A DNA stretch of 39,645 nucleotides, taken from a virus. This document shows, one piece after another, positions 1,494 to 39,490 of this stretch. The translations under genes and the position numbers were made by a program. The notes beneath the pieces were generated by a model, which had not been told where the DNA came from, ran no database searches, and saw only the letters and a program-made list of their open reading frames with translations. Each line of letters begins with the position of its first letter. The stretch's first letter is position 1. The stretch covers positions 1 through 39,645 of the IMG/VR virus record IMGVR_UViG_3300042934_000280. The stretch is one strand, 5' to 3'.

Positions 1494-1838
1494 TTAAAGT
1501 TGCTGTGCTGCTGTCAATGCTGCAATTTGCGCTTGCATTTGTTTGATCTGCAGTTCTACTGCATCGGTGCTACATTCTGCAGTGTAAACACCCGTCTCGA
1601 TATTTTTAGATATTATCTTAAGGCTCACGCAATCCGCATAAGTCATTAAAACCTCATCGGCTTCAGATAAGTACTGAATACTTGCGATGTTATCAGAATT
1701 CTTAAAATTTGCTTCGATTTCATCATAGGGTAAATCTGATTTAAAGCTAAAACTTCTCCTCTTCTGGATATCTAATGATGTGATTCCCAAAGGGATGATT
1801 TCAAAGATTGCTTCATTGCTTAGTTTAATTTTCTCCAT
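1494..1838 (-). CDS. Small phage protein with C-terminal coiled coil, tail/lysis junction
   Basis: A 114-residue product starting MEKIKLSNEAIFEI. The start at 1838 is chosen because AAAGGA lies 8 bases before it. The open frame extends further upstream only by chance. The C-terminus (VELQIKQMQAQIAALTAAQQL region) is a short heptad-type coiled coil, as found in small tail-accessory proteins that sit between tail-fibre genes and the holin in clostridial prophages. No enzymatic motif was seen. A role in tail-fibre assembly or trimerisation is inferred from position only. Confidence 0.75.
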   Translation of the reverse strand: MEKIKLSNEAIFEIIPLGITSLDIQKRRSFSFKSDLPYDEIEANFKNSDNIASIQYLSEADEVLMTYADCVSLKIISKNIETGVYTAECSTDAVELQIKQMQAQIAALTAAQQL

Positions 1839-1884
1839 GATTTTTAATCCTTTCTTGATATAAAAATAAGCCCTCTTAAGGACT

Positions 1885-2202
1885 TTGGTTAATGAGTTAA
1901 ATAATAATTTAACAGCTTTAAAATATTTCGGCACTAGCAGGCATAGAGCGATCTGCTTTAAGGGTGATAATGGTGTATTATTTGCAGTATCTATACATAT
2001 ACCGGCATTTATTACTGTATCAACATGTGTTATAAATAGTGCTGTATTGCAAGGAGTGGGCCCAATAGATGGCCTCACGGTTGCCACATTTAATATAACC
2101 ATAAATAATGGTGACCACATAATTAGCATATCATCAACCAATGCAACTACGGCAAACACGTATAACGGTAAACTCATTGAATTCGTACTGCAGATAACAT
2201 AA
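1885..2202 (+). pseudogene. Silent, inverted alternative C-terminus of the tail protein at 2207-2728
   Basis: This 105-codon open frame lies opposite to all neighbouring late genes. It begins at TTG without a usable ribosome site. From LNNNL onward it has about 101 residues, and the active tail gene has about 100 residues after the same LNNNL motif. The two frames end tail to tail, four bases apart. The C-terminal part is rich in T, N, S, I and V, as in receptor-binding beta domains (for example FNITINNGD). It is best read as a stored domain that would become the tail protein C-terminus after inversion between the 14-bp repeats. A chance open frame remains possible. Confidence 0.55.
1898..1911 (+). 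repeat. Inverted repeat, left copy (TAAATAATAATTTA)
   Basis: This 14-bp sequence is exactly repeated in inverse orientation at 2495-2508. In both reading frames it encodes the same phase of L-N-N-N-L, so inversion between the copies would keep the frame. It is entirely A/T, so a chance match has to be considered. Confidence 0.65.
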
Positions 2203-2206
2203 ATAG

Positions 2207-2728
2207 CTATTTACTAGATAAAAGCTCTGCGGTATATGTATAAGGAGCTGTACCACCGCTTGCGGCTACAGTTCCACCAGCATTAGTGACGACTGTTAAA
2301 GTTCCTGATAATCTTGTTTCAATCACAGAAACAGTAGGCTTGTATTGCATAACACCAAGATAGTATAGACCATCTGCATCTATTACGGTTACTTTTACAA
2401 TCACATTGCCACTATTATTACCTTTAATAGCACTCATCGCACTTGATAAAAACGCAGCAGATGCAGTAGAACTATATTTTTTATAATAGTTAACTAAATT
2501 ATTATTTAGCGCAGCAATAGTTTGTCCATGAGCATATGTTACTGCGGCGCTCGGATACTTTACTGTATCGTTAACAGCATCTGTCTGCACTATATTGTTC
2601 AGATGGTTTTCAAGTGCTGTATCAATGTCATCAATGCCTTTATCCATCTTATTAAGATTGGTACTGTTTAGCGGAGTAGCTGTTGACGGACTATTTTGAA
2701 ATGTTATCTTGATGTATCTCTTCGCCAT
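2207..2728 (-). CDS. Tail fibre/receptor-type structural protein
   Basis: A 173-residue product. The start at 2728 (MAKRYIKITF) is fixed by a consensus AAGGAGGT 8 bases upstream; the 14 codons before it are out of register with any ribosome site. The N-terminal half is the constant attachment type found in small clostridial tail proteins (LNSTNLNKMDKGIDDID, then helical). From about residue 78 (LNNNL) it changes to a serine/threonine-rich beta-type C-terminus ending in TYTAELLSSK. Its C-terminal segment lies between inverted repeats and faces a silent alternative on the plus strand, so this gene is probably the host-range determinant. Function is inferred from position and composition. Confidence 0.75.
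   Translation of the reverse strand: MAKRYIKITFQNSPSTATPLNSTNLNKMDKGIDDIDTALENHLNNIVQTDAVNDTVKYPSAAVTYAHGQTIAALNNNLVNYYKKYSSTASAAFLSSAMSAIKGNNSGNVIVKVTVIDADGLYYLGVMQYKPTVSVIETRLSGTLTVVTNAGGTVAASGGTAPYTYTAELLSSK
2495..2508 (-). repeat. Inverted repeat, right copy, inside the tail gene
   Basis: Exact reverse complement of 1898-1911. It lies within codons for LNNNL of the tail gene and marks the point where constant N-terminal sequence would give way to the exchangeable C-terminal part. Confidence 0.65.
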
Positions 2729-2991: not shown

Positions 2992-3897
2992 TTATTCGGT
3001 TACTACTTCAGGAGTTGTTACATTGATATCACACCGCAAAACTATAACTTGATTTGTAGGTGTTGTAATCGTACATGTTACATAAGCGGATCCGGATCCA
3101 ATTGCTGTCACTTTACCATTGGATGAATTGACTGTAGCAACTGCTCTATTCGAGCTTACCCACCTGTATTTTGACTTAGTAACCTTATTTTCGAGATTAA
3201 TATCAAATACATTGCCTGTATCTAAATCAAGGGTTGTTTCGGTCAGTAATGGAGCGTTATCATCAATCCCTACGATTACCTCACTAACTAATGTTTGAGT
3301 CGTTGCATCCGGGAGAGTTATTTTACATGTTACATTTGCTTTTCCAGTACTCTTCGCTTTGAGTAATCCGCTTTTGGAATTTACTTCTATTATGGCAGTG
3401 TCTGAGCTCGTCCAGAGATACGAGGAGCCGGTTACTTTATTATCAAGGTTTATATCGTAGGTTGTCATGGTATCGAGCAGGACGGTTGTGGCGGTAAGGG
3501 ATGGAGTGGTTACTTCTTCTATCGGTTCGGGATCCCTTGCTCTTACATTTAATTTTATGGTACCGGTCACTGTTTCGTATGCCGGATCATCCGGAGTAAA
3601 TACCCATTCTAAGTCCCATGTACCCAATCTCATATTATCATAGTTAGGATAGGTAAATGTTCCTTTTGCTTGTTCTCCATTTTCGTCAATTATTGGTATG
3701 CCAGGAAGATCACCTATCATATTTTCGCCTTGTAGCATGCTTATACCGTTTGGTGTATCGAAATTTATTACTTTTAATTTCTTTTTAACTGTAATTTCTT
3801 CCGTTGTTGTGTTTGTTTCGGAAGCCTCTATCATTGATGGAACTATCATAGAAGTAATTAAAGCAACGATTAGTAATACGTTTAATATTTTTCTCAT
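2992..3897 (-). CDS. Secreted protein with two bacterial Ig-like (BIG2) domains; lysogenic-conversion candidate
   Basis: A 301-residue protein. Residues 1-25 form a signal peptide (MRKIL, hydrophobic core, cleavage near IEASE). An unassigned beta domain follows, then two BIG2-type Ig-like domains, recognisable from WTSSDTAIIEVNSKSGLLKA and WVSSNRAVATVNSSNGKVTA with the VTCKIT/VTCTIT strands. BIG2 domains are found in cell-surface adhesins. A signal peptide is unusual for a virion tail protein, which assembles in the cytoplasm. The start at 3897 follows GGAGGTG by six bases; an earlier GTG overlaps that site and is rejected. The gene has its own extended -10 promoter and terminator, typical of a prophage cargo gene (moron). 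Confidence 0.85.
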   Translation of the reverse strand: MRKILNVLLIVALITSMIVPSMIEASETNTTTEEITVKKKLKVINFDTPNGISMLQGENMIGDLPGIPIIDENGEQAKGTFTYPNYDNMRLGTWDLEWVFTPDDPAYETVTGTIKLNVRARDPEPIEEVTTPSLTATTVLLDTMTTYDINLDNKVTGSSYLWTSSDTAIIEVNSKSGLLKAKSTGKANVTCKITLPDATTQTLVSEVIVGIDDNAPLLTETTLDLDTGNVFDINLENKVTKSKYRWVSSNRAVATVNSSNGKVTAIGSGSAYVTCTITTPTNQVIVLRCDINVTTPEVVTE

Positions 3898-3917
3898 TTG
3901 AAACACCTCCTACCCAT

Positions 3918-3960: not shown

Positions 3961-6348
3961 TTAACCTTTTTCTAAGCTTGCAACCCACAAAAACAACAGC
4001 GGAATAAATTCGTCATACCTTAAATTATAACTATAATCAACTATATCACTTGTCGTATCATAATCATTAAGCTCATTTTCATTTTCGTCCATTAACATTT
4101 TTTCATATATTGGGGCCTTAATTAATCCGGCAAACTCCATATCAGAAATCCCACACTCTGCCATGGCTCCCTCGATACGTTGTGCTATAAATCCTATGTG
4201 ATATCGACCACTTGTCCCATTTACCATTTGGAACGTATACGGGACAATCATCTTGGCGAATCTTAAAAACCTTTCATCTTCGCCTAAAACTTTTATATTA
4301 GTTTTCATACGCTCATCTGACGTTTGAATTGTACCATTTACAGACCATACACTAGTCCACTTTCCGTTAGCTGTACCGCAGGCTGTAGTAGCATCAAATG
4401 TAGGACGGAAATTGTATTCGGACGACACATATACTGAGTTGTATCCAGCACCTGAATAATTTATTCCGTTAGCCTTGAATGCAGTACCTGCAGTTGTTGC
4501 GTTATTCGCAAGTGGAGCGGTAATCCCATTGCTCGTAATTTGAGATTGCAGATTGTTACTTGTAATCGGTGTGTACCCATTCAGCGTAGAACATGCAACA
4601 TTACCACAATTAATATTCCCATTTGCATCAATAGACAATTTATTTACTCCAGACGCATTCCATCCCTGTATATATGATCCATCGATCTCTAGCCTTCCCA
4701 AAGAACCGACTGATTTTAATACTACGCCCTGGATTATTCCACCATTAATTCTATCGCCGCTTATCGTTCCTGCTGTAATCTGGTTAGCATTTAATGTCCC
4801 AGCATAAACCCAGGTAGATTTTACCGTGTCAGCAACTACCGTTCCAGTTTTTAGAACTGATCCGTCTATTGTAGTAAGATTTCCGTTAACGTCAAAGGTT
4901 GCAAAGCCATTGAAATTAATCTTGCTAGCCTTTATCGTTGCTGCTTCAGAAGTAAGATTAATAGCAGCAATCACGCCTGCTTTTGTTACTCTAAGCTCGA
5001 TTTGCTCGGCTGACTGTGTTATGGCGCTGCTCAATTCATCTTCTTTACCTTTTGCCCTTGTGACCTCGGAACTTATTAGATCGGCTGTCTGAGTAAATCT
5101 TGATTGAGTATCCTCTGCTAAGTCCGATACGGTAACTTCCAATCCTTCAACCGACTTTTTAATAGTCATTGCTTTGCCTTGGAGCTGGATAATTTCTTTA
5201 TTCAATCCGAAGTTCTGTGTTCGTTCTTCAGCTCCCTCGGCAATATAAGAATCCTTTAAGGCTTGTATTCCTGTGAGTGTCCTCTGAAATATGTACCCGG
5301 TAACAACATCATCCGTGCTGATTGCAATGGTATCTCCTACCTCGATATAAGGTAATCCGATATTCTCGGATTGGTACGGTCTATACGGTCTCTTTGCCAT
5401 GTTGCCAAAGGCATTTAAAGCTATGTTTTCGAGTTCGGCAGCACCTTTACCGAATACCAGGAAGTTTCCTTCGATTACATAGGTATTGGTTCCAGTACCG
5501 ACAATAGCACCGATATCATCCTCTTCCTGTCTGATTTGGAGCTTATCTATTTCTTTGACGGTATATTCCTCAAATTTAACTGACCGATACATGGCCTTAC
5601 TTACTGTCTCGGAGATAAAATCCGGCTGTACAAAGGATGTGTCTGATTCTGATACCGGATAAAGTGCATTGGATGGATATAAAGTCTCTGAGGGGTACAA
5701 TCCGTATGCCGGCTGTAATACAACATGTTTAAACTTCCCATCACGTCCAATATGCCCGAAACAGCCGTTTATTTCTTCACAGGCTTCCAACACTACCCTA
5801 CCACTTATTTGGCTTGGTTCTATCGTTTTAGTTACCGTCATTCCGTCATTAGGAAGGGTTTGTATCTCCTCTTCTAATCCAAGGAATGATAATAAGCTTG
5901 CCCTGAATGCTGCCAGTGTCATCGGGAATGGTAGCGAATTATACCAGGAAGAAACATCTACATCTATTTTTTTCATTCTGTCATAAGCAACTATATCCTT
6001 GAACCATGCATCATCTTGCTTAGTGCAGGTAGCAACTTTAAATATTCCAAGTGGCATTGTATAGATATTATTAACTTTCTGATTAACAACAAATTCTAAT
6101 CCAGTGACATCCTGTGATACATCTGCAAGAGTGAATTTAATCTGTGAAGCATCGCAAGCCCCGAATACTAAATCACTTCCAGAGTTGATACTTTCTGATA
6201 ATTCAAAGCTATCATCAACTACCTTAAGAGTATCGATTGTTAGATCCAATGAAGGAAAATAAATTTCAAGGTCCTTATCAGCCAATTGCGATACAAGAGG
6301 AAACATATCGTTTTTGTATATAGTTTTTAAAGCTTCAGCTATATCCAT
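3961..6348 (-). CDS. Tail spike/minor structural protein with S74 intramolecular chaperone
   Basis: A 795-residue protein. The N-terminal third matches the phage minor structural (tail-hub/baseplate attachment) type, with the LYPSETLYPSNALYP repeat and FISETVSKAMYRSVKFEEY. The middle (TVSDLAEDTQSRFTQTADLISSEV and onward) is coiled and fibre-like. The C-terminus is a peptidase S74 endosialidase-type chaperone: SDERMK at residues 677-682 gives the catalytic Ser and Lys, followed by the IGFIAQRIE motif. In the family this domain folds the trimer and then cuts itself off just before the Ser. GGGGATCAG precedes the ATG, which directly abuts the upstream gene stop. Confidence 0.85.
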   Translation of the reverse strand: MDIAEALKTIYKNDMFPLVSQLADKDLEIYFPSLDLTIDTLKVVDDSFELSESINSGSDLVFGACDASQIKFTLADVSQDVTGLEFVVNQKVNNIYTMPLGIFKVATCTKQDDAWFKDIVAYDRMKKIDVDVSSWYNSLPFPMTLAAFRASLLSFLGLEEEIQTLPNDGMTVTKTIEPSQISGRVVLEACEEINGCFGHIGRDGKFKHVVLQPAYGLYPSETLYPSNALYPVSESDTSFVQPDFISETVSKAMYRSVKFEEYTVKEIDKLQIRQEEDDIGAIVGTGTNTYVIEGNFLVFGKGAAELENIALNAFGNMAKRPYRPYQSENIGLPYIEVGDTIAISTDDVVTGYIFQRTLTGIQALKDSYIAEGAEERTQNFGLNKEIIQLQGKAMTIKKSVEGLEVTVSDLAEDTQSRFTQTADLISSEVTRAKGKEDELSSAITQSAEQIELRVTKAGVIAAINLTSEAATIKASKINFNGFATFDVNGNLTTIDGSVLKTGTVVADTVKSTWVYAGTLNANQITAGTISGDRINGGIIQGVVLKSVGSLGRLEIDGSYIQGWNASGVNKLSIDANGNINCGNVACSTLNGYTPITSNNLQSQITSNGITAPLANNATTAGTAFKANGINYSGAGYNSVYVSSEYNFRPTFDATTACGTANGKWTSVWSVNGTIQTSDERMKTNIKVLGEDERFLRFAKMIVPYTFQMVNGTSGRYHIGFIAQRIEGAMAECGISDMEFAGLIKAPIYEKMLMDENENELNDYDTTSDIVDYSYNLRYDEFIPLLFLWVASLEKG

Positions 6349-6765: not shown

Positions 6766-9303
6766 TTAATGTACAAATACCGCTTTACCCGTTTTATTGT
6801 AGTTCTCTTTCTCGTATTTAACTACTGTTTCATATCTTACTTTTCCATCCTCGTAAACATGAAGATGCAGCTCGGTACCGCCTCCGGCTCCATTCTGGCC
6901 CGTAACTGCTTTAAATGCTGCAACAATAGTATCGAGTGGTGCTTCGATATTGGTTCCTTTTTTCTGATCACCTAGGATAGCTAAGAATTCGCTATTCGGT
7001 GGAATAACCGTTCCGGTTGCAAGTCTCGGTATCTTTGGCGCTGTTACAGTCTTAAGATTAAATCCTACTGTATATGCTTTTGAGAATGGAGTAGCAGGCA
7101 TTTCAAAGCTTATTTTATTGACCGCATTTATTACCGCATTAATGCCGGTAACAATACCACTTACCATACCATTGATAATATCGATAATTAGATTGATCGG
7201 TGTTCTAACGATGCCAACCAATGCATCAAACACGCCTTTGAAGATGTTCTTTACACCCTCCCATGCCTTTTTCCAATCACCAGTAAATACTCCAGTAATA
7301 AATTGCACAATGCCTTTCAGGGCGGTTATGATACCACTCACTGCATCAACTACACCGCCGAGAAATTCGCCGAAAATAGTAATGATATAAGATATTACTT
7401 TTGAAATCGGAGGCCCAAACTTTTCAACGAACCATTTAACTATTGGTGCGATAAATTTATTATAGATTTCTAATGCTCCGTTAACCAACTCGCCCACAAA
7501 GTCCATGAAATTCGCTAGGAGGGGTTTTAAGTGTTCCGTCCATAGTTTATCAACCGTCTTCATGAATGTATCCCAAATTGGCTTAAGGAACTTATTCCAT
7601 AGGGTTACAAAAAGGTCTGAGGTAGTCTGCCAAGCTTTTTTAATGTTATCAAATATCGGAGATCCCCACTTATTCCAGAACTCCGCTAAAACATCAACAA
7701 AATCCATCCATATTCCAGTAGCTACCGCAAGCGCTGGTGCAATTGCATCTCGCCAGATCATATCAAATATTCTTTTTACTTCTGTGAATATCACTTCGAT
7801 AAGACCCCATGACTCGGTAGCAAATTCAGCAATCATCGGCAGAATTACCGTAATAAGTTTCTCAATTGTAGGAAATACAGCAATATTCCAAATATCCGAG
7901 AATACGCGATTGAAAGTATCAAAGGTACCTACAACTATTGTGCCTACTGTAGTAAATATTTGCTGCCATGCCGCTGTAAACGACCCTGTAAAATAATTAA
8001 GTAATGGTTGCCCTAGCGTCTTAATATCTACGAACATCCCTGAAACAGTAGTTTTAAATGTTTGAATGCTTGGCTGTAAATTAGTCCAAATATTTGAGAA
8101 TATAGGAGCAAAGCTTGTAGCGAGCCATGTATTGAATAACGAAAAACCCCTCTTGATATTTTCTATTGATTTTGCCAAGCCACTGTCTAGTGCTGATGTA
8201 TCTGCATCTACTTTAGCTGTGATTCCCATGGTACCAGCACCGGTATCTACTCCACCCATCATAGCCATAGCATCTGCTGCACTTTCTGTATTATCAGCAA
8301 TATTCTCTGTAGTGTTATTAAGCATATCAAACGATGCGGTTCCACTCTTTGCATCCTTGGCCGCTTTCTTTGCTGATTTACCCATAACTGCTAATCCTGA
8401 ACTAGCATCTTCGGCTCCGGCTGCTACTTCCTCGGCATTTGCACCTGTATCACCCATGACACTCTTAATATTGAATACGGTACTTAAGATCTTTCCAACC
8501 TTGCTAGCAAATTGAGTGAGGTATGAAAGGGACGCACTCAAATACTTTACAACCGGTGATAATACTTGGATTAATCCAGTACCAAGAATTCCAAGAAACT
8601 CTTTCCACTTCTCAGATAATACCCTAGTCTGGTTCGCCCAACTATCGGAAGTCTTAGCGAAATCACCTGCAGCCAATGATGTTTGAGCCAGGAAGTACTG
8701 TTGTCTTACAAGTAGCTTTTCATTAGCAGCCATATCTCCATAAGCTTTACTAAATCCATTCTGTAAAGCAAATAATGCTAAGTTGGTTTCTGTCGCAACA
8801 AGTCCTATGGCTTTTAGTGGCTCGGTCTCTCCAGTGTAGATTGCCTTACCTATTGTCTTTACTTCTTCAGCTGTTTTATTGTAAAACGACATTATATCAG
8901 CCAACCGGCCTGTAATATTAACTGCCATATCCGATCCAACATCTGAGGCCTGACCCATTCCAGTCGACATAGCCATGAATAAGGATCCCATTTCTTTAGC
9001 TGCCAACTTCGATATACCAAAGGTCTCTATGGATGTCTTTGCAAACTCTTCCATCTTGTAAGCCATATCACCAAAAGCAGTATCAACGACATTCTGCACT
9101 TCCTGCAAATCAGAGGCTATCCCAACAGCTTCTTTTCCAAACCGAATAAGCTGTGCAACCCCGAACACTATTCCAAGAGTCTTCCCAATGCTTAACAAAG
9201 TGCCTTTAAGGCTATTAGCTTGAGATTTGATTGTGTTGGTCCCCGATTTAAACCCGGCAGTATCTATCTTGGTATCAAATTTTAAACTACCATCATAAGC
9301 TAT
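6766..9303 (-). CDS. Tail tape measure protein (apparent ATA start)
   Basis: An 845-residue protein that should set tail length and act in DNA passage. The N-terminus AYDGSLKFDTKIDTAGFKSG and the following helical repeats are typical of tape measures. Hydrophobic stretches lie in the second half (ISYIITIFGEFLGGVVDAV and neighbours) and a tail-tip-like C-terminus ends in KTGKAVFVH. The family reading requires initiation just before GCT-TAT-GAT-GGT, where the codon is ATA (9303-9301), preceded by AAAGGGGTGAG at ideal spacing and by an in-frame TAA. The only later starts (TTG at 9198 and beyond) lack a ribosome site and would remove 35 conserved residues. Confidence 0.88.
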   Translation of the reverse strand: MAYDGSLKFDTKIDTAGFKSGTNTIKSQANSLKGTLLSIGKTLGIVFGVAQLIRFGKEAVGIASDLQEVQNVVDTAFGDMAYKMEEFAKTSIETFGISKLAAKEMGSLFMAMSTGMGQASDVGSDMAVNITGRLADIMSFYNKTAEEVKTIGKAIYTGETEPLKAIGLVATETNLALFALQNGFSKAYGDMAANEKLLVRQQYFLAQTSLAAGDFAKTSDSWANQTRVLSEKWKEFLGILGTGLIQVLSPVVKYLSASLSYLTQFASKVGKILSTVFNIKSVMGDTGANAEEVAAGAEDASSGLAVMGKSAKKAAKDAKSGTASFDMLNNTTENIADNTESAADAMAMMGGVDTGAGTMGITAKVDADTSALDSGLAKSIENIKRGFSLFNTWLATSFAPIFSNIWTNLQPSIQTFKTTVSGMFVDIKTLGQPLLNYFTGSFTAAWQQIFTTVGTIVVGTFDTFNRVFSDIWNIAVFPTIEKLITVILPMIAEFATESWGLIEVIFTEVKRIFDMIWRDAIAPALAVATGIWMDFVDVLAEFWNKWGSPIFDNIKKAWQTTSDLFVTLWNKFLKPIWDTFMKTVDKLWTEHLKPLLANFMDFVGELVNGALEIYNKFIAPIVKWFVEKFGPPISKVISYIITIFGEFLGGVVDAVSGIITALKGIVQFITGVFTGDWKKAWEGVKNIFKGVFDALVGIVRTPINLIIDIINGMVSGIVTGINAVINAVNKISFEMPATPFSKAYTVGFNLKTVTAPKIPRLATGTVIPPNSEFLAILGDQKKGTNIEAPLDTIVAAFKAVTGQNGAGGGTELHLHVYEDGKVRYETVVKYEKENYNKTGKAVFVH

Positions 9304-21081: not shown

Positions 21082-21711
21082 CTATTTGCTTTTGCTTTGC
21101 CTGGCTGACACCTTCGTATCAAGAAAGACATCATTCTTTTTCGGTATCGCCCGGCTGATTTTATGCTTTGCCATGAAGTTGTATATATCAGACTTCTTAA
21201 CACCGTACTTATCTGCAATATCGCCAACCTTGTTTGACTCGTCTTTGCAAAGCTTAGTGATCTCATCGGTATAATGTTCTAATATCTCAGCCTTAGTTTC
21301 TTCCTTAACCGGCTTGTCCTCAATCTTCTTAGCCTCTTCCTTCAGTATGTTGGTCAGCTTCTCTTCAACCGGATCAGGTTCCTTATGCTCCTTTGCGCAA
21401 TTAACCATTTCCTTGACCGCTGCTTCAAATACCGGATTAATAGTAGCAGGCTTGCGAACTCCCATAAGTTTCTCCAGCTCTGCGGTTTTCTCGTTTTTAG
21501 CTTGAATGACAGCAACAACAGCGTTCTCTCTAAGCTCCTGCATCTTCTCCGGGGACAGGATTGTTATATAAGTTGCCCCATTGGGCCTTGAAGTAAAACA
21601 GATGTCCTCACCTTTGGATTTTTCAATCAAGTCCTCTATGACCTCCAGTTCCCTACTCAGATGATTACCTTTAATAATATGTTCATTCCATTGATCTAAT
21701 AGATTATTCAT
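21082..21711 (-). CDS. Charged helical protein with C-terminal HTH-like end
   Basis: A 209-residue protein starting MNNLLDQWNEHIIKG, preceded by GGGAGG. A short beta segment (ATYITILSPEKMQEL) is followed by a long charged coiled region. The C-terminal segment VGDIADKYGVKKSDIYNFMAKHKI looks like a helix-turn-helix. No named family was recognised with confidence. The start overlaps the upstream 59-codon gene by eight bases, so they are probably translated together. It may be a DNA-binding early protein. Confidence 0.7.
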   Translation of the reverse strand: MNNLLDQWNEHIIKGNHLSRELEVIEDLIEKSKGEDICFTSRPNGATYITILSPEKMQELRENAVVAVIQAKNEKTAELEKLMGVRKPATINPVFEAAVKEMVNCAKEHKEPDPVEEKLTNILKEEAKKIEDKPVKEETKAEILEHYTDEITKLCKDESNKVGDIADKYGVKKSDIYNFMAKHKISRAIPKKNDVFLDTKVSARQSKSK

Positions 21712-21883
21712 CCTCTTCTTCCTCCCATTCTCCATTTTCACAAACTTCAGCCGGTGACTCTATCCGGCTCCTCTCAACAAAGCAATCTGTCGACAGCTGT
21801 ACTGTTATATCCAAAGCATCTAATAGTCCATCAAGCTCGTATACTTCCTCATCGATATCAACTGTGTAAATTATCCTCTGCAT
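21704..21883 (-). CDS. Small acidic protein
   Basis: A 59-residue protein, MQRIIYTVDIDEEVYELDGL and onward, ending in the very acidic EWEEEEDE. AAAGGGG stands nine bases before the ATG. It overlaps its neighbours on both sides (26 bases upstream, 8 downstream), typical of tightly packed early genes. No domain was recognised; a beta-hairpin followed by an acidic tail could mimic nucleic acid, but this is speculation. Confidence 0.65.
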   Translation of the reverse strand: MQRIIYTVDIDEEVYELDGLLDALDITVQLSTDCFVERSRIESPAEVCENGEWEEEEDE

Positions 21884-21965
21884 CCTTCTTCGCCCCTTTC
21901 TCTATGGCTTTTTCTATAAAGCATAGTTCCAAGAATATCAAAACTAACATAAATCCTGTAAACAT
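21858..21965 (-). CDS. 35-residue single-span membrane peptide
   Basis: The frame begins M-F-T-G-F-M-L-V-L-I-F-L-E-L, a membrane span, and then turns into a charged tail EKAIEKGAKKDAED. GGGAG precedes the ATG. It overlaps the mini zinc ribbon upstream and the acidic protein downstream. Function is unknown; translation is supported by the ribosome site and the tiled overlaps. Confidence 0.5.
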   Translation of the reverse strand: MFTGFMLVLIFLELCFIEKAIEKGAKKDAEDNLHS

Positions 21966-22021
21966 TCCTTACTCCCTTCTGGGATGACTACTCCACATGA
22001 TACACATCGGTTTGCATCCAT
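21944..22021 (-). CDS. 25-residue mini zinc-ribbon peptide
   Basis: The frame reads M-D-A-N-R-C-V-S-C-G-V-V-I-P-E-G, then CLQDLC. CxxCG-xxIPEG-C-C is the exact pattern of phage and clostridial mini zinc ribbons. AAAGGA lies about ten bases before the start. It overlaps the 35-residue peptide gene by 22 bases. A competing 23-codon frame over the same bases has no ribosome site. Confidence 0.5.
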   Translation of the reverse strand: MDANRCVSCGVVIPEGSKECLQDLC

Positions 22022-22055
22022 CGGTTACGTTTCCTTTCATGAGACAAATTTTAGT

Positions 22056-38101: not shown

Positions 38102-39490
38102 GTGATTAAAATTAAAAAGAAAACAGAGAAATCCTTAAAGCATGTTGCTTTATACTTACGCGTCAGCTCTGATAAACAGGCTAAAACAGGAGATAGTCTA
38201 AGGGAACAACTTGAAACACTTCAAGATCATGTTAATAAGCGTGATGACCTTGTTATACATGACACATATATAGATGATGGTATCTCCGGCCAGAAGCTTT
38301 TTCGGGATGAATTTACAAGACTCATGGATGATGTAAAATCTGGCAGCATCGATATTATCCTTTTTACCAAACTTGATAGATGGTTCCGTAGCTTAAGGCA
38401 TTATCTTAATACACAGGACGCTCTTGAAAAGCATGGCGTAACATGGACCGCTGTATCTCAGCCGTTTTTTGACACAACTACCGCCCACGGCAGGGCATTT
38501 GTGGCACAATCCATGACATGGGCTGAGTTGGAGGCACAGAACGACTCTGAACGAATCCTAGCCGTATTTGAAAATAAGGTGAAGAATGGTGAAGTTATAT
38601 CTGGTACCACCCCTTTTGGCTATAGAATAGAAAAAAAGCGTCTGGTACCAGACGATAATGCACAGTATGTAGTAGCAGCTTTTGAGTATTACAAGCGTAC
38701 ATCAAATCTAATAGACTTAATGAAATATATGCGTAAGGAATATGGTATCGATAAAACGGCCTCAACATACCGCAGGAGTATTTTAAAAAACCGGGTGTAT
38801 ACTGGTGAATACCGAGGTAACATAAATTACTGCACGCCTATCATAGATCGTGATACATTTGATACAGTCCAGCACCTATTATCAAAGAATATACGAGCAA
38901 ATCAAGCCAATGACTATCTGTTTAGCCGAATGGTTAAGTGCGGAGTTTGTGAGTCAGCAATGGCTGCGCATCAAGTACATGGTATTGGACACCCTCGGCA
39001 GGACGGGACGAGAAAGAAATATAAACGCAATGGATACCGCTGCAAGCGTCACTTCGACCTAAAGTTGTGCGAAAATAAAAAAATACTATTTGAAACCACA
39101 CTCGAAAAATATTTAATATCGCATTTAAGAGAAGATTTAACATCTTATATAGTCGAATATGAAATATCAACTGCTCCGATTGTCAGTGCTAATGCCAAAC
39201 GAAAACAGCTTGAAGATAAAATCGAAAAACTTAAGGACCTTTATGTTAACGACCTAATTACTATGGATGAGTTTAAGGTAGACCGCGCCAAGTATCTTGA
39301 TCAACTAAATTCCATTCCTAAACATGATGTACCGAAAAAAGACTTAACTCGAGCAAAGCTACTGATAAATAGTAATTTCGAAGAAATATATTCTACTTTT
39401 AATTTTAATGAAAAACGGCGCTTCTGGCGAGCTACATTGCAAGAAATACGCTTCTATTCAGACCGTTCTATCAAACCTATTTTTTTGTGA
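38102..39490 (+). CDS. int: Large serine recombinase (integrase)
   Basis: A 462-residue integrase/excisionase. The catalytic domain starts ALYLRVSSDKQ (nucleophile Ser in RVSS), with LFTKLDRWFRS and DRW as further active-site arginine and aspartate motifs. A Recombinase domain follows (GTTPFGYRIEKKRL, YTGEYRGN), then a zinc ribbon with CGVCESAM...RCKRHFDLKLCENK, and a coiled-coil C-terminus. It should join attP with the attB inside the pilus ATPase gene. GTG start at 38102 has only a weak AAGAAAG site. It lies next to attR. Confidence 0.95.
   Translation: MIKIKKKTEKSLKHVALYLRVSSDKQAKTGDSLREQLETLQDHVNKRDDLVIHDTYIDDGISGQKLFRDEFTRLMDDVKSGSIDIILFTKLDRWFRSLRHYLNTQDALEKHGVTWTAVSQPFFDTTTAHGRAFVAQSMTWAELEAQNDSERILAVFENKVKNGEVISGTTPFGYRIEKKRLVPDDNAQYVVAAFEYYKRTSNLIDLMKYMRKEYGIDKTASTYRRSILKNRVYTGEYRGNINYCTPIIDRDTFDTVQHLLSKNIRANQANDYLFSRMVKCGVCESAMAAHQVHGIGHPRQDGTRKKYKRNGYRCKRHFDLKLCENKKILFETTLEKYLISHLREDLTSYIVEYEISTAPIVSANAKRKQLEDKIEKLKDLYVNDLITMDEFKVDRAKYLDQLNSIPKHDVPKKDLTRAKLLINSNFEEIYSTFNFNEKRRFWRATLQEIRFYSDRSIKPIFL

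Follow-up and report, generated by a model that had tools for sequence, protein, structure and literature searches.

The locus analyzed here raises the question of whether a phage tail gene and the open frame that faces it constitute a switch between two C-termini of one tail protein and, if so, which enzyme could operate such a switch. The locus belongs to the IMG/VR contig IMGVR_UViG_3300042934_000280, a bacterial virus record of 39,645 bp which was analyzed in its entirety and is hereinafter called the window. The tail gene (2207-2728, minus strand) and the opposed frame (1885-2202, plus strand) were both confirmed as open frames, with the stop codons 4 bp apart (2203-2206). The tail gene encodes a constant N-terminal part of 78 residues, including an LNNNL motif (2495-2728, minus strand), which matches a minor tail protein family in PHROG (E 1.6e-5), followed by C-terminal domain A (2207-2494, minus strand; 95 residues and a stop), the form expressed in the IMG/VR record. 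The opposed C-terminal domain B (1912-2202, plus strand; 96 residues and a stop) is silent: its stop-to-stop frame begins outside the recombination site that bounds it, and no ribosome-binding site with an in-frame start was seen for it in the window sequence, although this plus-strand frame has the top coding score among the six frames. An exact 14-bp inverted repeat, TAAATAATAATTTA, is present at 1898-1911 (plus strand) and 2495-2508 (minus strand), and each copy encodes LNNNL, in a codon phase common to both. When the 611-bp segment is inverted in silico, the product is a protein of 174 amino acids that consists of the constant 78 residues and 96 new ones and ends in a proper stop. The first-pass annotation, which had been made from the sequence alone, described two frames ending tail to tail four bases apart with in-phase LNNNL motifs encoded by exact 14-bp repeats, and this description held; its proposal that inversion would supply a new C-terminus with a proper stop also held in silico, with 96 new residues as opposed to the approximately 101 claimed.

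Of 2000 dinucleotide shuffles, one produced an exact repeat of at least 14 bp between the two regions (P=0.0005). Given that this value is not corrected for looking elsewhere, that the repeat is AT-rich and near-palindromic, and that a second perfect 14-bp inverted repeat lies nearby in the same 5 kb (1552-1565/2460-2473), the repeat alone is not decisive. The same properties are what can be said for the simplest rival explanation, namely, the chance coincidence of an AT-rich repeat with an antisense frame that happens to be open, and the existence of the second repeat meant that comparison with relatives had to decide.

The relatives were collected with searches that used the N-terminus and the neighboring genes, and later with the site pattern and in genomes that had been sampled. 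Nine other loci (L002, L005, L013, L016, L026, L032, L046, L071, and L073), which belong to divergent phages or prophages, mostly of the Lachnospiraceae type, proved to have the anatomy of the window locus but C-terminal domains that are unrelated. The shared layout begins with a constant N-terminus that closes with an L-N-x-N-L-like motif and continues with domain A, a stop, a short gap or overlap, the opposed domain B, and the inverted motif, and the core AAAT-NNNN-ATTTA is common to the cassettes, with the second copy inverted. The N-terminus of the window protein is 50-69% identical to those of the relatives, and the homology stops at or near the LNNNL motif; for example, the L002 protein is 61% identical to it over residues 1-90 and unrelated beyond. 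All nine B frames that were scored lack stops and are the best of the six frames by codon score. The N-terminal protein of L073, a locus beside baseplate-type genes, is a different one, and that of L071 is another still, so the cassette moves between N-termini. Both the anatomy and its conservation are thus directly observed. Three loci (L010, L035, and L134) are in single-domain states, with the B site kept and domain B lost. The domain at position A of L027, from an Anaerocolumna MAG, is homologous to the domain at position B of L073 (40% identity over 86 amino acids, E 2e-13), and domains A and B of L073 are homologous to each other. Separately, the site pair in L027 (970-1551; spacer AGTA in both sites) surrounds not a domain B but a whole gene of about 165 codons with its own start, which might be cargo in an invertible segment.

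When the relatives were searched for the C-termini of the window protein itself, no homologue of its domain B was detected in IMG/VR, INPHARED or 397 Lachnospiraceae genomes, and so none of these collections contains a relative with this domain in the expressed position; near-identical strains of this phage in both orientations were also searched for, and none were found, although such records may be missing from the collections searched. Comparison of the site pattern with 392 Lachnospirales genomes gave two matches.

The recombination sites can be defined from these alignments. Site A (2495-2517, minus strand) has the core CTAAATAATAATTTA, with arms TAAAT/ATTTA and spacer AATA, and the extended form TTGCTGCG-CTAAATAATAATTTA; site B (1889-1911, plus strand) reads TTAATGAG-TTAAATAATAATTTA, and its core is identical to that of site A at 14 of 15 positions. 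A 23-bp consensus derived from the relatives matches only these two sites in the window (0 expected from shuffling), and no further copy with up to 3 mismatches is present there. Across 22 sites, the mean identity of the 15-bp core is 84-88%, whereas the 30 bp on the outer side average 42-44% and the 30 bp on the inner side 28-32%; the excess holds in coding and noncoding copies of the core alike, and positions -8, -7, and -4 are conserved as well. The two 4-bp spacers of a pair agree in 9 of 11 site pairs, although the spacer varies between phages (AATA, AGTA or GATA; P=0.0008 by shuffling); in the pairs of L005 and L016, the two spacers differ at one base. The sites and the covariation of their spacers are therefore matters of observation. 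Against the chance explanation stand the recurrence of the cassette in many divergent phages, the codon scores of the nine B frames, and these site statistics; the comparative data refute it, and we consider it all but excluded.

A terminator-like hairpin on the strand of the tail gene (1868-1885, minus strand) lies directly outside site B, and outer sequence like that of the hairpin region of the window (taagccctc..aggact) is found in L002, L005, and L013. The tail-to-tail junction is occupied by a palindrome, AAATAGCTATTT (2201-2212), which contains stop codons on both strands and whose arms AAAT/ATTT are those of the recombination sites. It occurs with at most one mismatch in 8 of 11 cassettes, and when the genes of at least 150 codons in the fetched loci are compared, it marks the end of tail genes of the cassette family and of no others. 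Two roles are conceivable for the palindrome, that of a mere double stop and that of a third recombinase site at which domain partners could be swapped. Such mid palindromes take the form AAA-stop-(reverse complement), either AAATAGCTATTT or AAATGATCATTT, at 2201-2212 of the window, at 9196-9234 of L073, and at the junctions of L095 and L096. As for the surroundings of the cassette, a small gene of the MEKIK.. family (1494-1838, minus strand; phrog_12931, function unknown) has counterparts downstream of the cassette in nearly all relatives, whichever N-terminal protein they have. The product of 2992-3906, which lies among the tail genes of the window, has what looks like a signal peptide together with bacterial Ig-like (Big_2) domains and is conserved in L005, L007, L010, and L016.

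An equivalent switch with its own recombinase exists in a sister form. In the locus L091, on the single 6.9-Mb contig of genome G057, the tail gene has the motif LNSDL and is accompanied by an opposed domain; the locus also encodes a XerA/C/D-like tyrosine recombinase, includes a second segment that is double-headed, and contains four sites that pair over 26 nt at 88% and over 24 nt at 96% complementarity. The locus L130 lies in a second prophage of the same genome and matches L091 directly in the recombinase (97%) and downstream (83%), whereas the second segment matches in inverted orientation at 554 of 561 bases (98.8%) as against 269 of 595 (45%) in direct orientation. The boundaries of the inversion fall exactly at the sites, and given that a base by which the two sites differ in their outer parts stayed with its flank, the crossover occurred inside the site. 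Accordingly, it is shown, for the recombinase-bearing sister form, that an equivalent double-headed segment was inverted between two prophages of one genome. Replacement of such segments in relatives that carry the recombinase is shown as well: two IMG/VR phages, L095 and L096, have flanks that are more than 99% identical and wholly different sequences in the approximately 610 bp between the sites. The tyrosine recombinase gene is located inside the cassette in L091 and L130; in L093-L096 and L136, it is a neighbor of the tail gene. In layout, the sites of the sister form agree with those of the window, but the spacer is AGTG or GGTG and the left arm varies more, so that they are similar, not identical, to the window sites. 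The recombinase tree is only weakly informative, with few outgroups. A gene of the same recombinase family, annotated as 'integrase', lies between a tail-fiber gene and the holin in Terrisporobacter phage TPELB_ph1 (PP197244.1; L138, 4836-5831), which encodes a separate large recombinase, also annotated as 'integrase', at 7720-9303. The product of 4836-5831 may be a tail invertase; examination of the inverted repeats near this recombinase gene revealed no clear cassette.

These data bear on a second rival explanation, under which domain B is a silent reservoir that does not invert, the short, conserved linkers at the domain borders of tail genes are hot spots where phages exchange modules, and the opposed layout is a frozen by-product. 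In favor of this view, the L095 and L096 segments were replaced whole and not inverted, the domains differ among all relatives, and single-domain states exist. Nevertheless, a layout recurs in which domain B is open and in frame and invariably meets domain A tail to tail in inverted orientation, the sites are conserved outside the coding context, the spacers covary within pairs, and a true inversion is present in G057; we consider the reservoir explanation unlikely. The best explanation is that a single-segment, double-headed invertible cassette sets the C-terminus of the tail protein, as the first-pass annotation had proposed: the anatomy recurs, the homology boundaries coincide with the repeats, and a sister segment exists in both orientations. 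The data on the relatives turn weak repeat evidence into a strong case for such a cassette, which we consider probable, although the flipping of this particular copy is inferred, with no reads to document it. What weighs against the explanation, besides the lack of reads, is that no relative was found with the domain B of the window in the expressed position, that the sister systems in which inversion is seen have somewhat different sites, and that the spacers of two site pairs are not quite identical. The tail protein is probably a receptor-binding protein of the tail tip; that domains A and B bind different receptors is, again, an inference. The further suggestion that both are beta-rich receptor domains has not been established: the single-sequence structure models of A and B are poor (pLDDT 51 and 36, respectively), and the fold search with them came back empty, so that no meaningful structural comparison of the two domains could be made.

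With respect to the agent of inversion, the absence of a dedicated invertase next to the cassette was confirmed, and the window encodes no recombinase other than a large serine integrase of 462 amino acids (38102-39490, plus strand), 36 kb from the segment. Three candidates had been named, namely, this integrase, a recombinase acting in trans, and recombination over the repeats. For the serine integrase it can be said that there is no other recombinase in the window and that large serine recombinases are encoded also in the relatives G001, G003, and G004. Against this rival, large serine integrases usually join unlike att sites, the window contains no additional site copy within 3 mismatches, G005, with the same cassette, has only a tyrosine integrase and no serine recombinase, and the G002 record has no recombinase at all; inversion by the phage's own integrase is thus very unlikely. 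The third candidate, occasional flipping without a dedicated enzyme, in which RecA or a phage annealing function would recombine the short repeats, would account for the presence of repeats in all members and for the lack of an enzyme in cis. Repeats of 14-23 bp are below the usual lengths for RecA recombination, and neither the dyad nor the covarying spacer nor the conserved outer bases would be required by homology alone, so this explanation, too, appears very unlikely.

A recombinase acting in trans is the best supported of the three. No tyrosine recombinase is encoded in the window, and hence the invertase would act in trans; none is encoded in the 38-60 kb records of the relatives G001, G002, and G004 either. 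Given that the enzyme-bearing cassettes carry a XerA/C/D-like recombinase and that the hsdS shufflons of bacterial type I restriction loci share the core of the site, the missing enzyme is likely, by inference, to be a tyrosine recombinase. Phage G003, whose early region is syntenic with that of the window, has a gene for a stand-alone XerA/C/D-like recombinase beside the homologue of the window gene 21082-21741; the corresponding gap in the window (21742-22055) holds one small unsupported frame on the plus strand and neither a recombinase nor a relic of one. Two stand-alone genes, 65-66% identical to that of G003, are present in G010, the genome that carries the cassette L026. The G003 and G010 recombinases, which are encoded within cassette-bearing phages or next to them, are closest to hsdS invertases of type I restriction loci from the human gut (40-44% identity, compared to 24-28% for XerC), and a scan of IMG/VR with the G003 recombinase found only itself. 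In G003 (L010 and L132) and in G010:C6 (L134 and L135), a stand-alone recombinase shares the phage or prophage region with an A-only tail locus, one from which domain B has been deleted (n=2). The enzyme and an intact cassette of the GATA type have not been seen together in one phage.

The link to restriction loci extends to the sites. The exact sequence TAAATGATAATTTA, which is the core of most tail cassettes as well, occurs in 4, 1, and 4 copies, respectively, in the type I restriction loci L139, L141, and L143 (less than 0.001 expected). These loci were reached via the recombinase, not via the site; HsdM and/or HsdS were confirmed in them by Pfam, and the copies sit at hsdS swap points. Compared to the core in the window, the arms and the layout are identical, and the spacer, AATA in the window, is GATA in the hsdS loci as it is in most relatives. 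This identity, which is directly observed, is in part due to the NDNL peptide that is shared by HsdS and the tail proteins; the B sites retain the core where nothing appears to be translated.

Among the known systems, the Mu Gin and P1 Cin switches, with which the first-pass annotation had compared the locus, share its logic, a constant N-terminus with two alternative C-termini in an invertible segment, and the comparison is valid as an analogy but not as kinship. Gin and Cin are small serine invertases that act on a 26-bp gix/cix site, and the window has neither; compared to a hix consensus, the window sites have 15-16 of 26 bases different, and the best match to it in the window has 8 mismatches. 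The cassette is thus not a member of the Gin/Cin group, and its closest counterparts are tyrosine-recombinase systems. In the Rin shufflon of Bifidobacterium prophages, a XerD-like tyrosine recombinase inverts C-terminal cassettes of a receptor-binding protein at short sites (PMC6109161), and a similar locus is known in Eggerthella lenta prophages (PMC8778435); Clostridial loci such as L091, L130, and L093 are of the same kind. The window resembles Rin in having a constant N-terminus and alternative C-termini between short inverted sites, but has a single segment with two domains, no flanking tyrosine recombinase, a mid palindrome, and a different site (AAAT-4-ATTTA as opposed to TTCCCTAACCC). 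The other close counterpart is the recombinase-less Bb423phi2/689b-1 bifidophage locus, where about 500 bp with two dissimilar gene ends is inverted at an 8-bp repeat without an adjacent recombinase, and for which an invertase acting in trans was proposed (PMC6109161). The window differs from it in host phylum and site; beyond that precedent, there are now many members, spacer covariation, candidate invertases, and the site match with hsdS shufflons. The gut hsdS shufflons (L139, L141, and L143) have related XerA/C/D-like recombinases and the same site core, placed at swaps of HsdS variable domains, but they change the specificity of DNA methylation, not a tail protein, and encode the recombinase within the locus. 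The likeness rests on these gut loci and not on the repeats of PsrA, the studied hsdS invertase of the cod locus in Streptococcus pneumoniae (PMC7096588). Action in trans has a parallel in RecV of Clostridioides difficile, a tyrosine recombinase of the host under whose action several unlinked segments are inverted (PMC5903667); RecV comes from a Clostridium relative and acts on bacterial switches, and the likeness lies in the trans action, not in the repeat sequence.

The mechanism that we propose on this basis is the following. The constant 78-residue N-terminus ends in the recombination site (AAAT-4-ATTTA, encoding LNNNL), and the segment between this site and its inverted copy contains both alternative C-terminal domains in tail-to-tail arrangement. 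A tyrosine recombinase of the XerA/C/D-like type that is not encoded by the phage would cross over inside the short sites and invert the approximately 611 bp, so that domain B would replace domain A in frame and A would go silent. The most likely source of this enzyme, which would act in trans, is an invertase of the kind known from hsdS shufflons, where the core is the same, or else a stand-alone copy in a co-resident prophage. The flipping of this copy, the trans origin of the enzyme, and the binding of different receptors by the two domains are all predicted from the relatives and the sites. A bolder reading, for and against which we see similar weight, is that the tail switches of Lachnospiraceae phages and the type I restriction-modification switch of their hosts share the site and the tyrosine recombinase family, such that a phage without an invertase borrows the hsdS-type invertase of the host or of a co-resident prophage.

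No such cassette in Lachnospiraceae phages is described in the open-licence literature that we searched, which is no proof of novelty. The present analysis adds Clostridial phages, in a minimal form that lacks an invertase, to those with invertible receptor-binding proteins, and provides a concrete candidate enzyme family and site. Some of the phage 'integrase' genes located next to tail genes, such as that of TPELB_ph1, may encode invertases. Given that the flip sites of the window match those of restriction switches in gut bacteria, the virus and the host may share one recombination enzyme; if the site is indeed common to tail cassettes and hsdS shufflons, one enzyme could switch both tail and restriction variation, the old idea of invertases that act on phages in trans becomes directly testable, and, should the bolder reading hold true, variation of the phage tail would be coupled to variation of host defense.
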